A DNA stretch of 39,827 bases from Thermodesulfovibrionales bacterium (lineage in GTDB: Bacteria > Nitrospirota > Thermodesulfovibrionia > Thermodesulfovibrionales > Dissulfurispiraceae). Both the position numbers and the translations under genes were made by a program. Positions 28,474-35,044 of the stretch are shown here, in pieces. Under the pieces are notes generated by a model. It had not been told where the DNA came from, made no database searches, and saw nothing but the letters and a program-made list of their open reading frames with translations. The stretch lies in contig JAOAEO010000003.1 of the NCBI GenBank assembly GCA_026416735.1, forward strand, positions 1 to 39,827, given 5' to 3'. How positions within the stretch are numbered: the first letter of the stretch is position 1; every line of letters starts with the position of its first letter.

Positions 28474-30000
28474 TTACTTCCTTTTCTTAAGAATTGCGTT
28501 TTTCAGCTCAATCGCATCGCTAAATTCAAACTTAACACCTCTAACCTCTTGATAATTCTCATGCCCTTTACCTGCCACTACCAAAATATCTCCACGGGAA
28601 GCCATATTCACTGCCATCTCGATCGCAAGTCTTCGATCTGGAATTATTACATAATTACCTTTCAAGGCACCCCTCTCCATATCTTCAATTATGTCGAGAG
28701 GATCTTCAAATCTTGGATTATCGGTAGTCATTATCACAAAGTCGCTCAAATCTGTTGCAATATTTGCCATCTTCGGGCGTTTTGACTTATCTCTATTACC
28801 TCCGCAACCAAAGACGGTTATAATTTTTTCTTTACCTGACCGAGTATTGTCTTTTAGTAATCTTCTTGCAGTATTAAGAAGTCCCTCCAGAGCATCTGGC
28901 GTATGAGCATAATCGACAATAGCCAAAAAATCCTGTCCTATATCTATTTTATGAAATCTACCTTCTACAGGTTCCATCTGAGCTATAGCCTCTTGTATTA
29001 AACCCATGGGCAACCCCAATGAGAGGGCTACAGAAATACCAGCAAGCATGTTATAGACATTAGGTAACCCGAGTAAATTAGTGCGTACAACTGTCATAGT
29101 TGAGAGTTCCTTTGAAAACTTTTCAAAAATTAACTCAAAAGTACTCCCTCTAAATGTTGTCTTTATATTACATGCCTTTATATTTGCTTCAGGATTATGA
29201 ATACCTATGGTTATAATAGAAGCCAAACTTTTTCTTTCTTCTCTGATCTCTCTATAAAGTCTCTCTCCGTAAGGGTCATCGATATTAATTATAGCAATGC
29301 CACTATCAATTAAGAGTTCAGAAAAGAGTCTCTTCTTAGCCTTATAATAATCTTCCATCGTTTTATGGTAATCCAAATGATCATGGGTTAGATTAGTAAA
29401 TACAGCCACTTTAAACTGAGAATAATCTACTCTTCGCTGAGATAAGGCATGAGAAGAGACCTCCGCTACCGCATAATGGCATCCTTGATCAACCATGCGC
29501 CTCAAAAAAAACTGAAAATCTGAAGCCTGAGGAGTTGTGTGATGAGCCTCGAAAAAATCATTCCCAATATAGTATCCTATAGTACCAATTAAACCAACTC
29601 TATAGCCACTCCTTTCAAAACAATTCTTTACAATGTATGAAGTCGTCGTTTTACCATTGGTACCGGTGATTCCTATTAAAGTTAATTGATTCGAAGGTTT
29701 TTTATAAAAGATATGAGACAATTTAGCGAGAGCGTCTCTGCTATCGGGGACACCAATCCATGTAATATTGCGATGATTATCTATAATATCTATAGATTCA
29801 TTCAATTCATAGGCTACTGCATTAGCACCTCTTCTAATGGCATCTGGAATAAAACGATGTCCGTCGGAATTTTCACCTCTAATGGCTACAAAGAGATCTC
29901 CTTCTTTTACCATTCTTGAATCATAGGTGATACCTCGTATTTCTCCCCTAAGATTACCCGATAGCTGAAACCCATCTAAACAAAAATCCTCAATCTTCAT
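28474..30000 (-). CDS. murE: UDP-MurNAc-L-Ala-D-Glu ligase adding the third residue (MurE)
   Basis: GITYDSRMVKEGDLFVAIRG, GITGTNGKTTTSYIVKN, TNLTHDHLDYHKTMEDYYKAKKRLF, VDYAHTPDALEGLL, TTDNPRFEDPLDIIEDM (DNPR motif suggests meso-DAP). Confidence 0.96.
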   Translation of the reverse strand: MKIEDFCLDGFQLSGNLRGEIRGITYDSRMVKEGDLFVAIRGENSDGHRFIPDAIRRGANAVAYELNESIDIIDNHRNITWIGVPDSRDALAKLSHIFYKKPSNQLTLIGITGTNGKTTTSYIVKNCFERSGYRVGLIGTIGYYIGNDFFEAHHTTPQASDFQFFLRRMVDQGCHYAVAEVSSHALSQRRVDYSQFKVAVFTNLTHDHLDYHKTMEDYYKAKKRLFSELLIDSGIAIINIDDPYGERLYREIREERKSLASIITIGIHNPEANIKACNIKTTFRGSTFELIFEKFSKELSTMTVVRTNLLGLPNVYNMLAGISVALSLGLPMGLIQEAIAQMEPVEGRFHKIDIGQDFLAIVDYAHTPDALEGLLNTARRLLKDNTRSGKEKIITVFGCGGNRDKSKRPKMANIATDLSDFVIMTTDNPRFEDPLDIIEDMERGALKGNYVIIPDRRLAIEMAVNMASRGDILVVAGKGHENYQEVRGVKFEFSDAIELKNAILKKRK

Positions 30001-31703
30001 CTTGTTGATGTAACTAAAATATTTTTATCTTTTACATCGTCTCGAGGAACCTCTAAATATGAGAGGGCATCATTCGCAATCTTTCTAAAGATAGGTGCAG
30101 CCACTATACCACCATAAATATGGCCCTTCGGATCATGAACAACAACAATTAAAGCTATCTTCGGTTTATCTACTGGGACAAAACCCACAAAGGAACTAAC
30201 ATAATTAATCTTGGAATATCTTTTAGTAATTGGATCAAACTTTTGAGCAGTGCCTGTCTTGCCAGCTACTATGTTTCCATCAACAGAAGCCTCCTTTGCA
30301 GTCCCACCAACCTCTGTAACTGTAGTTAATATAGATTTAAACTCCATCGTTGTTTCTTCTCTCAAGACTCTTTTTGTCTCAGGAACCGCCTTATAAAGTG
30401 TAACTCCCTCAGGGGATTGAATCTCCGAGACTAAATAGGGTTTTACAAGTAGACCTCCGTTTGCAATTACCGAATATGCCCTCAATATTTGTAAAGGAGT
30501 AGCAGCTACCTCTTGACCAATTGCAATGGAACCAATAGACATACCTGACCATTTAGCTGGTGGTCTTACCCATCCCGATACCTCACCTATTATATCGATT
30601 CCTGTCTTTTCCCCAAAACCAAATTTCTTTATGTATTCATAAAGCCTCTCTTTACCAAGAGATAAAGCTATCTTTATTGTCCCTACATTAGAAGACTTCT
30701 GTATCACCTCTTGAAAAGTGAGAACACCATGCCTGTGGACATCTTTGATTCTCTTACCACCGACCTCTATATAACCTGCCGAACAATCATATCTTATATT
30801 AGGTTTAACTAACCCCTCTTCTAATGCCGCAGCGCCAACTATTATTTTAAAGGTTGAGCCAGGTTCATAGCAATCAGTTATAGCTCGATTCTTCCTCATA
30901 TCGGCTTTTACAGTAGCTGGATTATTAAGATTGAAGGAAGGACTATTAGCCATCGCTAATATCTCACCTGTGAAAGGATCCATCATTATGGCAGAAGCAT
31001 AAGAGGCTCTCCACTGTCGAACGGCTTCATCGAGATTCCTTTCTAAAATAAATTGAAGCCCCTCATCTATAGTTAGAATAATATTATTGCCTCTAATCTC
31101 TCTCAATACCCCCTTTGAGAGAAGATTCCCTTTGGCATCCCTATAATATGATACAGTTGCTTGATTTACAGCCGTTAGTTCTCTATCATATTTACTCTCG
31201 ATTCCTTCAATCCCCTTGTTATCGATATCGACATAGCCGATCAGATGGGAGGCTAAACTGCCCTTTGGATAAAATCTCTTGCTTTCAGTAATTAAACCCA
31301 CTCCCTTTATCTTGGAATTCTTAATTTTCTCAGCAATTTCAGGAGAAACCTTTCGCTCAATCCAGCTGAATTTAGAATTTGCTTTGAGTTTAGACAAAAC
31401 TGTTTCTCTATCTTTGCCCATAATCGTAGATAATTCTGTAGCAACTTTATGGATCTGGGATTCTCCTATTTCAGAAGGATTGCAATATATCGATTCCATA
31501 TCGACGTTTATAGCAAGTTCTCTACCCTTTCTATCGAAGATGAGACCTCTCTTTATCGGGATTTCTTCTATTTTGATCTGCTGCATCTTTGCCATCTGAA
31601 CATATAAAGAGTGATTTAACAACATAATATCAACAAGTCTTATTACTACGGCCAGAAAAACAGAAGAGATAAGACAAGCAATAATTATTAACCTCGTTCT
31701 CAC
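29997..31703 (-). CDS. ftsI: penicillin-binding protein 2/3, FtsI-type transpeptidase
   Basis: RGLIFDRKGRELAINVDMESIY, YEPGSTFKIIVGAAALEEG (SxxK), QKSSNVGTIKIALSLG (SxN), VAGKTGTAQKFDP (KTG). 4-nt ATGA overlap with murE. Confidence 0.95.
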   Translation of the reverse strand: MRTRLIIIACLISSVFLAVVIRLVDIMLLNHSLYVQMAKMQQIKIEEIPIKRGLIFDRKGRELAINVDMESIYCNPSEIGESQIHKVATELSTIMGKDRETVLSKLKANSKFSWIERKVSPEIAEKIKNSKIKGVGLITESKRFYPKGSLASHLIGYVDIDNKGIEGIESKYDRELTAVNQATVSYYRDAKGNLLSKGVLREIRGNNIILTIDEGLQFILERNLDEAVRQWRASYASAIMMDPFTGEILAMANSPSFNLNNPATVKADMRKNRAITDCYEPGSTFKIIVGAAALEEGLVKPNIRYDCSAGYIEVGGKRIKDVHRHGVLTFQEVIQKSSNVGTIKIALSLGKERLYEYIKKFGFGEKTGIDIIGEVSGWVRPPAKWSGMSIGSIAIGQEVAATPLQILRAYSVIANGGLLVKPYLVSEIQSPEGVTLYKAVPETKRVLREETTMEFKSILTTVTEVGGTAKEASVDGNIVAGKTGTAQKFDPITKRYSKINYVSSFVGFVPVDKPKIALIVVVHDPKGHIYGGIVAAPIFRKIANDALSYLEVPRDDVKDKNILVTSTR

Positions 31704-31807: not shown

Positions 31808-32158
31808 TCATTTAATCGAAGTTTTACTCTCAGTGGGATATGAAGCAGGTAGTGGTTCTGGTTGATCGATGGTCCTCACATAGATAATCTTTTTCCGATC
31901 AGGAAAATAAAATCCTTCACCTTTTGCGTTGGCTCCTTTAATATTCCCGATGGATGCAAGACTTACCTTTGCCATAAGAAGATACTTCTTTTCTTTTAAG
32001 AGTTCTACCTTCTTTTTTTCGAGTTTGCTTATCCTATATTCTATATTTGTAAAGGTACTCTTTTGCGTTAGTATTAAAAAGATAGAGGATATTAGAAGAA
32101 CCATTAGAAAAGATTTAAATAGAAACCAATAAAAATTTCTTTTCCTTCTCTTTCTCAT
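31808..32158 (-). CDS. ftsL: FtsL-like membrane protein
   Basis: 116 aa, basic N-terminus, single TM (WFLFKSFLMVLLISSIFLILTQ), coiled-coil (NIEYRISKLEKKKVELLKEKKYLL), lies between rsmH and ftsI; overlaps rsmH by 4 nt. Confidence 0.75.
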   Translation of the reverse strand: MRKRRKRNFYWFLFKSFLMVLLISSIFLILTQKSTFTNIEYRISKLEKKKVELLKEKKYLLMAKVSLASIGNIKGANAKGEGFYFPDRKKIIYVRTIDQPEPLPASYPTESKTSIK

Positions 32159-33027
32159 ACCTTCTCACCTACTCTTAATTTTGCACTTCTACTGGAAGGA
32201 TTAATTAACCTCTCTTCTATTGAGGGAAGAATAGGTTTTTTCGTTATTACCACCATTTTCTTAGTAGAGGCGTAATCCTTTAAAAAATTCTTCACAATCC
32301 TGTCCTCAAGAGAATGATAAGAAATAACACAAAGCCTGCCACCGCTATTTAGCAATTCATAAGCCTCAATAAGTCCCCTTTGAAGACATTTGAGCTCTTC
32401 GTTAACTTCAATCCTTAGAGCTTGAAATACCTTTGTTGCTGGATGCAGTCTACCTCTACGAACATAAATCCTCTCCACGAGGGAGGCTAATTCTTTGCAG
32501 GTATTGATGCCATCTCTTTCTCTCTTTTTGACGATTGCCCTTGCAATTCTTTTAGCGTGGGATTCCTCCCCAAACTCCTTAAAAATCCGTTCGAGCTCCC
32601 TTTGTGGATATCTATTAACGATCTCCCAAGCATCGAGCTTTTGTGAAGTATCCATCCTCATATCTAACCTCGCATCAGACAAAAAACTAAACCCTCTATC
32701 TAATTCCTTTAGTTGGAATAGAGAAACTCCAAGGTCAAATAAAATCCCATCCGCTTTGTCAATGCCTATACCTCTAATCAGCTCTTTTAAACTGGCAAAA
32801 TTACCCTTTATTATTCTAAACCTCGAATCCTTTATGCTCTCTGAAAGATACTTTACCGCCTCGCTATCTCTATCGATCCCAACTAAAAAGCCTTTATTAT
32901 TGAGTTTTGATAAAATCGCTCTTGAGTGTCCACCAAAACCAGCTGTAGCATCTATATAAACACCCTCTTCCTTAATTACTAAAAATTCAACAACCTCCTT
33001 AACTAAAACTGCCCTATGGATCTCCAC
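32155..33027 (-). CDS. rsmH: 16S rRNA (cytosine(1402)-N4)-methyltransferase
   Basis: HRAVLVKEVVEFL, YIDATAGFGGHSRAILSKL, GILFDLGVSLFQLKELDRGFSF, LHPATKVFQALRIEVNEEL, CVISYHSLEDRIVKNF. Confidence 0.97.
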   Translation of the reverse strand: MEIHRAVLVKEVVEFLVIKEEGVYIDATAGFGGHSRAILSKLNNKGFLVGIDRDSEAVKYLSESIKDSRFRIIKGNFASLKELIRGIGIDKADGILFDLGVSLFQLKELDRGFSFLSDARLDMRMDTSQKLDAWEIVNRYPQRELERIFKEFGEESHAKRIARAIVKKRERDGINTCKELASLVERIYVRRGRLHPATKVFQALRIEVNEELKCLQRGLIEAYELLNSGGRLCVISYHSLEDRIVKNFLKDYASTKKMVVITKKPILPSIEERLINPSSRSAKLRVGEKV

Positions 33028-33041
33028 AGAACCTAAAATAT

Positions 33042-33233
33042 TTAAAGCCCTTTTGATTCATTGCCCATCTCTTCTATAATCCTCTTTTGAACTAAAAGCA
33101 TCTCTTCAACCGCCTTCTCAAAAAAGGACCTGCCGACTCTATGGAAAGGATACTCAAAGACTTGGGAATCTCTAACGATATCTTTCTTCTCCTCCTTTAC
33201 TTCATGGAGCACGTTAACCCCCTTAAATGCCAT
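33042..33233 (-). CDS. 63-aa ORF of unknown function between mraZ and rsmH
   Basis: MAFKGVNVLHEVKEEKKDIVRDSQVFEYPFHRVGRSFFEKAVEEMLLVQKRIIEEMGNESKGL; ATG lies 11 nt inside mraZ 3' end, collinear with the operon. Confidence 0.55.
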   Translation of the reverse strand: MAFKGVNVLHEVKEEKKDIVRDSQVFEYPFHRVGRSFFEKAVEEMLLVQKRIIEEMGNESKGL

Positions 33234-33678
33234 AACTTATCAGTTTTGCCTCGAAATCCTTTTTATCTATTTTTGAAGGATCGGCTACTGCATCCCACTC
33301 AGTCTTCTCCCATATCTCAATCTTGTCTATCTGACCCACTATAACAACCTCATTATTAATATTTGCATCCCGTCTTTGCTCATAGGGAATAAGGACCCTG
33401 CCTTGCTTATCTAAGGTCACTTCAGCCGCAGAAGCGACAACCCTTCTCAAAAAAAACTTAACGGCTTCATCCATTTTCGGTAAATTTCTTATCTTCTCTT
33501 CGAGACGCATCCACTCCTCTGAGGGATAAAGGTGTAAACATCTGTCAAAGGCAGAATTGGTTATGTACAGTTTATCTGTGTTATATTTCTTATAGAGAAC
33601 TTCCCTCAAAGGGATAGGCAACATAATTCTGCCCTTTGAGTCTAAAGTGTGATAATATTTACCGATAAAGGAGGGCAT
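33223..33678 (-). CDS. mraZ: transcriptional regulator MraZ
   Basis: FIGKYYHTLDSKGRIMLPIPLREVL (AbrB-like DxKGRxxxP) and second half AEVTLDKQGRVLIPYEQRRDANINNEVVIVGQIDKIEIW. Confidence 0.95.
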   Translation of the reverse strand: MPSFIGKYYHTLDSKGRIMLPIPLREVLYKKYNTDKLYITNSAFDRCLHLYPSEEWMRLEEKIRNLPKMDEAVKFFLRRVVASAAEVTLDKQGRVLIPYEQRRDANINNEVVIVGQIDKIEIWEKTEWDAVADPSKIDKKDFEAKLISYGI

Positions 33679-33683
33679 ATATT

Positions 33684-33708
33684 TCCACTTTTTACCACTT
33701 TTTTCTAC
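33684..33708 (-). promoter_or_regulatory. three 10-bp-periodic repeats GTAGA-AAAAA-GTGGT-AAAAA-GTGGA (candidate MraZ-binding box)
   Basis: Minus strand reads GTAGAAAAAAGTGGTAAAAAGTGGA then AATATATG(mraZ); 5-nt units separated by exactly 5 nt, matching the geometry of known MraZ boxes. Confidence 0.6.
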
Positions 33709-33737
33709 ATGATATAATTATTTAAGATATAAGTCAA
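33709..33737 (-). promoter_or_regulatory. sigma70-type promoter of mraZ/dcw operon
   Basis: Minus strand TTGACT-N17-TATCAT (each hexamer 5/6 to consensus), ~30 nt upstream of mraZ ATG. Confidence 0.6.
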
Positions 33738-33756
33738 GAGAAATTTTATGACCCAA

Positions 33757-33787
33757 TATAATGTAGTATGGTCAAAAAGTCATACTA
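33757..33787 (+). promoter_or_regulatory. -10-like TATAAT followed by inverted repeat TAGTATG-N10-CATACTA (operator/hairpin candidate for bioF-like gene)
   Basis: TATAAT 33757-33762; arms 33764-33770 and 33781-33787, perfect 7-bp complement. No convincing -35. Confidence 0.4.
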
Positions 33788-33823
33788 AATATTGAATCTT
33801 ATATTCTCATTTGCAAGTCTTCT

Positions 33824-35044
33824 ATGTTTAAAGAGGAAATCGAAAAACTAATACAAAAAAAGCTTTTAAGGGTAATAAAAGACAGAAACGCTTATAGAGA
33901 ACACTTCTATAAAGAAGACGCTTTAGATAAATCTTTCCCCTTTGATTTTAAGTCAAAGAGTTTATCTCATATATTAATAGAGGGGCAGAAATTTGTTAAT
34001 TTTTCTTCAAATGATTATTTAGGTCTTTCGCACAATCAAAGAGTAATTGAAGCCGTTAAAGAAGTTATCGAAATATTTGGTATAGGAGCTGGTGCCTCGC
34101 GGCTCCTTTCGGGTGGGACAGAATTACACCAAGAACTGGAAAAGAAAGTAGCAAAATTTAAAGGAACCGAAGCTGCGTTAATTTTCAATTCTGGATATAC
34201 TCTAAACACAAGTGTCATTCCTGCCATAAGTGATGAAAAGTCAGTCATTTTTAGTGATGAACTTAATCATGCCAGTATCATCGATGGCTGTAGGCTAAGC
34301 GCAGCAAAAAAGATTATTTATAGACACACTGATATGAACCACCTCTCTGAATTGATAAAAAAAGAAGAAGGCAGAAGAAAGATCGTAATTACAGATACAG
34401 TCTTTAGTATGGATGGAGATATTGCTCCTCTAAAAGACTTATATAACATTTGCCTTGAAAACGATGCTATTTTATACTTAGACGATGCCCATGGCACAGG
34501 AGTACTTGGCAATGGTCGGGGAGCTCTATACCATTTTGGGCTTAACCCAACAAATTGGATAATTCAAATGGGCACCTTCTCTAAAGCTTTAGGGTCCTTT
34601 GGAGCTTTCATAGCTGCCGATAAAGAGATAATAAAATGGCTAATAAACAAAAGTAGGGGGTTGATCTTTTCTACTGCATTACCCGCTACCATTGTGGCAG
34701 CTTCTATTAAAGCATTGGAGATCGTTGAGAGCGACTTCTCCTTGATCGACTCTTTGTGGGAAAACCGACAACGGCTCTTTAACGGATTGAAAAAATTAGG
34801 ATTCAACACCCTCAAGAGCCAAACACCTATTATACCTTTAGTACCTCCCCATCTATATTCGGAGGATGCCGTTGAGAATGTGAACATATTGTCAGAAATG
34901 CTTAGAAAAAAACATATTTATGCGCCAGGAATCAGACCACCTACAGTAAAAATACCAAGGATAAGGTTTTCTGTCACGGCAGCCCATACATCTGAAGAGA
35001 TCGACTATCTGTTAAAGAGCTTAACGGAACTTAAGCTGAGGTAA
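33824..35044 (+). CDS. bioF: alpha-oxoamine synthase, 8-amino-7-oxononanoate synthase-like (BioF/KBL family)
   Basis: NFSSNDYLGLSHNQRVIEA, GAGASRLLSGGTELHQELEKKVAKFKGTEAALIFNSGY, DELNHASIIDGCRLS, YLDDAHGTGVLGNGRG, MGTFSKALGSFGAFIA. BioF versus KBL not separable by eye. Confidence 0.85.
   Translation: MFKEEIEKLIQKKLLRVIKDRNAYREHFYKEDALDKSFPFDFKSKSLSHILIEGQKFVNFSSNDYLGLSHNQRVIEAVKEVIEIFGIGAGASRLLSGGTELHQELEKKVAKFKGTEAALIFNSGYTLNTSVIPAISDEKSVIFSDELNHASIIDGCRLSAAKKIIYRHTDMNHLSELIKKEEGRRKIVITDTVFSMDGDIAPLKDLYNICLENDAILYLDDAHGTGVLGNGRGALYHFGLNPTNWIIQMGTFSKALGSFGAFIAADKEIIKWLINKSRGLIFSTALPATIVAASIKALEIVESDFSLIDSLWENRQRLFNGLKKLGFNTLKSQTPIIPLVPPHLYSEDAVENVNILSEMLRKKHIYAPGIRPPTVKIPRIRFSVTAAHTSEEIDYLLKSLTELKLR

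Follow-up and report, generated by a model that had tools for sequence, protein, structure and literature searches.

A predicted MraZ operator at the dcw cluster promoter of a Thermodesulfovibrionales bacterium and its conservation across Nitrospirota

Introduction

In the genome of a Thermodesulfovibrionales bacterium, three short repeats are squeezed in between a promoter and the start codon of mraZ, and the question raised by this locus is what these repeats are for. A sequence-only reading of the 39,827-nt stretch of DNA analysed here (the window) took them for an MraZ box at the mraZ promoter. The conservation of the repeats in the order and the phylum, at mraZ or at rsmH, supports that reading, and very probably we are dealing with the operator through which MraZ controls the promoter of the division and cell wall (dcw) cluster.

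The promoter and the box array

Read from 33737 to the mraZ ATG at 33678, the minus strand is TTGACT-N17-TATCAT-GTAGA-AAAAA-GTGGT-AAAAA-GTGGA-AATAT-ATG. The -10 hexamer abuts box 1 directly, and the ATG begins 5 nt past box 3 (Table 1). The sequence and coordinates reported earlier, with TTGACT-N17-TATCAT running into three repeats and then the ATG, were borne out when the minus strand was read again. The same account had described three 5-mers at an exact 10-bp period; the spacing stands, but the first copy, GTAGA, is degenerate and does not fit GTGGN.

Table 1. Features of the mraZ promoter region and of the downstream cluster (positions in the window)
Feature	Coordinates	Strand	Basis or remark
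-35 hexamer TTGACT	33732..33737	minus	sequence; TTGACA at that position in nearly all relatives
-10 hexamer TATCAT, spacer 17 nt	33709..33714	minus	-10-like hexamer 0-8 nt before first box in 62/67 upstream regions
Box 1, GTAGA, degenerate	33704..33708	minus	most relatives GTGGT
Box 2, GTGGT, intact MraZ box by sequence	33694..33698	minus	sequence, conservation
Box 3, GTGGA, intact MraZ box by sequence	33684..33688	minus	many relatives GTGGAGG (box + Shine-Dalgarno) there
Predicted transcription start, 7 nt past -10	33702	minus	inferred from -10 position
mraZ, 151 aa, presumed binding protein	33223..33678	minus	TIGR00242, PF02381, DSKGR + DKQGR
rsmH (mraW), next dcw gene under promoter	32155..33027	minus	TIGR00006, 339 bits
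Small membrane ORF in ftsL position	31808-32158	minus	position in cluster
ftsI-type PBP and murE, further dcw genes	28474..31703	minus	profile/cluster context

It is the combination of promoter and boxes, together with its conservation, that is significant here, and not any single part. Promoter hexamers by themselves are unremarkable in the window (7 sites, with 5.1 +/- 2.2 expected), and GTGG-N6-GTGG by itself shows no genome-wide enrichment, with 11 matches against 15 for the reversed control. The full pattern GTRG-N6-GTGG-N6-GTGG, in turn, matches once in the window and in none of 100 dinucleotide shuffles, and the exact pair GTGGTAAAAAGTGG occurs as a single copy in the 1.7-Mb assembly, at the mraZ array. 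A chance repeat is ruled out by the shuffles and the conservation taken together. A wider regulon in this genome was also considered and rejected: in none of the ten other GTGG-N6-GTGG pairs is the consensus spacer present, such pairs are not more frequent than in the control, and near-matches are scattered like those of the reversed control. For an RNA element, no Rfam match was found in 33100-34300.

The array thus consists of GTG-core direct repeats with a 10-bp period, two of them perfect and one degenerate; it lies downstream of the -10 of a dcw cluster promoter, is kept at the same place in relatives, and belongs to a genome that encodes an MraZ protein.

The mraZ gene and its cluster

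The mraZ product scores 120.9 bits against TIGR00242 (cut-off 98.35), and PF02381 is found above its cut-off in each half of the protein, giving the two AbrB-like repeats of the family, with two D-x-x-x-R motifs, DSKGR and DKQGR. Solved structures of MraZ homologues include 1n0e, 9qlg and 9qlr. This mraZ is genuine, and together with rsmH, the ORF in the ftsL position, the ftsI-type PBP gene and murE it makes up the standard dcw order. An in-frame N-terminal extension was tried and rejected, as the 13 open codons upstream hold no in-frame ATG, GTG or TTG; since relatives also begin at the same residue, the ATG at 33678 stands as the start.

The gap between mraZ and rsmH is filled by an ORF of 63 aa (33042-33233, minus strand) whose ATG overlaps the end of mraZ. 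Because it has a weak match in the same-genus genome L013 and none that is convincing in other relatives, this ORF would seem to be either fast-evolving or not a gene.

Comparison with known systems and a proposed mechanism

Eraso and colleagues reportedly described the MraZ box of E. coli at Pmra in 2014. In E. coli K-12 (NC_000913), the DNA before mraZ reads TTGACA-N18-TAAACT-N7-GTGGG-N5-GTGGG-N5-GTGGG, so that both organisms have a sigma-70 promoter followed by boxes at an exact 10-bp period, ahead of mraZ-rsmH. The two differ in the cores (GTGGG in E. coli, GTGG[T/A] here), in the number of intact boxes (three in E. coli, two plus the degenerate box 1 here) and in the position of the first box, which in E. 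coli lies 7 nt past the -10 and thus further away than here. In Burkholderia cenocepacia, a member of another phylum, the MraZ site of PmraBc is likewise located on the downstream side of the -10, where it overlaps the start site, and in vitro binding of MraZ to a PmraBc fragment has been demonstrated (PMC7761207); its GTG repeats share the 10-bp period, but there are four of them and each has seven nucleotides. The MraZ site of the Mollicutes (Fisunov et al. 2016) is described in PMC8475190 as AAAGTG[T/G] repeats. The unit is almost identical to those found here, AAAAAGTGGT and AAAAAGTGGA; it occurs in wall-less bacteria with a four-gene cluster. Judged by its sequence, then, the array appears to be of the ordinary MraZ site type, with a layout of promoter and repeats that is kept across Nitrospirota and in E. 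coli.

A mechanism can be proposed on this basis. The sigma-70-type promoter is followed by GTGG boxes with A-rich spacers which, from known MraZ biology, would present one box per helical turn, so that every box looks to the same side of the helix; neighbouring subunits of an MraZ ring could therefore bind side by side. The bound protein would occupy roughly -5 to +20 and cover the start site, in agreement with the published anatomy in E. coli and B. cenocepacia (PMC7761207) and with the previous proposal that the box covers +1. Binding may then hinder open-complex formation or promoter escape, so that expression of the cluster, from mraZ and rsmH through ftsI and murE to the later genes, would fall in concert and MraZ would limit its own level. 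A separate block of elongation, which had also been suggested, and the choice of repression over activation go beyond what sequence alone can establish.

The same MraZ operator could, after all, serve to activate the dcw promoter, and the lower dcw transcripts of Neisseria elongata lacking mraZ (PMC9395523) point that way. We nevertheless regard activation as unlikely at this locus. The boxes cover the predicted start and the transcribed leader, where a bound protein normally blocks initiation, and E. coli MraZ represses through the same layout, as reported in PMC7761207.

Conservation in the order

Among 60 relatives, mraZ was found in 58. The repeats, whose absence from related genomes would have counted against the MraZ reading, proved nearly invariant in the order and present phylum-wide. 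Almost without exception, the upstream regions of the relatives carry TTGACA-N17-TATNAT followed by GTGGTAAAAAGTGGTAGAAAGTGGAGG or a near variant. Three exact GTGG cores at the 10-bp period are seen in 59/64 distinct upstream regions, box 1 follows the -10 after 0-8 nt in the great majority of relatives (Table 1), and the core pair GTGGTANAANGTGG occurs in 53/60 relatives, nearly always at mraZ only.

Upstream of mraZ in two Desulfomicrobium relatives (L044 and L045), three and four exact GTGG boxes follow one another, and the copy number therefore varies between close relatives. One member of the family has a second, distant mraZ-like gene (L075, G019:C3:42651-43022; 34% identity) with no boxes upstream.

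A-tracts that recur in 10-bp phase bend DNA, and the A-rich spacers, which are fairly conserved in this order, might thus be the functional part of the array, tuning promoter strength by curvature without any MraZ. The pattern of conservation makes this very unlikely. In 34 non-redundant relatives the GTGG columns hold 1.8-2.0 bits of information, the spacers 0.7-1.8 and the columns just upstream about 0.4-0.9, so that GTGG varies least; the spacers of distant families become, for example, GGGGAA or GGGATA with GTGG unchanged, and those of E. coli are AAATT and GCAAA.

Conservation in the phylum: the operator apart from its regulator

In 118 Nitrospirota genomes there are 114 strict matches to the triple GTGG pattern, 85 of them no more than 300 bp ahead of mraZ or rsmH: 71 precede mraZ (in 69 genomes), and 14 precede rsmH in genomes where mraZ is unlinked. 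The other 29 look like background, because the reversed-pattern control gives about 33 matches. G070 and G078 aside, the genomes without a strict triple mostly have an 11/12 version behind a TTGACA-type promoter, on a box score for which the best of 2000 shuffled 310-nt stretches is 10; the weakest array, that of G080, reaches 9/12.

The Nitrospira-like family f22 and the family f25 (L086-L096 and L106-L115) are of particular value here. Their mraZ is unlinked from the dcw cluster and, as identified by eye, follows a short helix-turn-helix-like ORF in the f22 loci that were read and an apparent phosphoribosyltransferase gene in f25. No boxes are found upstream of these mraZ genes; the promoter and box array stand before rsmH instead. 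Since in f22 the boxes stay at the dcw promoter and are absent at the relocated mraZ, control of the dcw cluster through this site is presumably in trans.

These families also bear on the possibility that the repeats serve the divergent bioF-like gene (33824-35044) and not mraZ. The two genes share a 145-bp intergenic region that is conserved in families f1 and f10, and a plus-strand TG-TATAAT promoter-like site, with its -35 in box 2, is present both here and in L013. That site, however, has no full match outside the genus, and the boxes are kept in families of the order whose mraZ has no divergent bioF next to it (e.g. L017, L019, L022 and L033-L043) as well as at rsmH in f22. An assignment to the bioF-like gene is thus highly improbable; from the boxes at rsmH in f22 and f25 and the boxes without a bioF neighbour it follows that the operator tracks the dcw promoter, and neither mraZ nor bioF. 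The proposal that G-rich repeats form a G-quadruplex controlling the promoter, made for Staphylococcus aureus mraZ, where a G4 motif is reported downstream of the promoter (PMC11796246), has a negligible chance of applying here: the array holds just two GG runs and lacks GGG, and an intramolecular quadruplex needs more than that.

What is particular to this genus

The predicted MraZ operator described here departs from that of its relatives in a few respects. The G-to-A change at the third base of box 1 is shared only with L013, whose array is composed of GTAGT, two GTGGT and one GTGTA; this composition suggests a downstream shift of the array in this genus. In 32/64 relatives box 3 is fused to the Shine-Dalgarno as GTGGAGG. 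In many relatives its sequence would accordingly be doubly constrained, because in the mRNA it is also the ribosome-binding stretch. No Shine-Dalgarno is visible between box 3 and the ATG in this genome (AATAT-ATG). The remark that a separate Shine-Dalgarno is lacking was thus correct for this genome, and the suggestion that the box covers the ribosome-binding region gains support from the relatives in which box 3 merges with GGAGG. By comparison with these sequences, box 1 appears to have decayed and the Shine-Dalgarno to have been lost in this genus, leaving two perfect boxes.

The plus-strand promoter-like site spans 33691-33718 (TTTACC-N16-TATAAT, with TG before the -10) and faces the bioF-like gene. 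One could imagine that box 2 doubles as the -35 of an extended -10 promoter of that gene, so that cell division and a second pathway, that of biotin or a related one, would both answer to one array; the missing Shine-Dalgarno and the lost box 1 would mark a rewired, weaker operator, with box 3 acting as operator and translation leader. We hold this to be a rather improbable scenario.

Significance

The MraZ-dcw control circuit would, with these results, extend to a whole phylum in which there has been little genetics. The fixed position of the boxes relative to the -10 may also serve as a practical guide to dcw promoters. The Nitrospira-like bacteria provide a natural experiment in which the regulator gene and the operator have come apart; the operator nevertheless stays with the dcw promoter, an argument for control of the cluster, and not of mraZ alone, as its conserved role.
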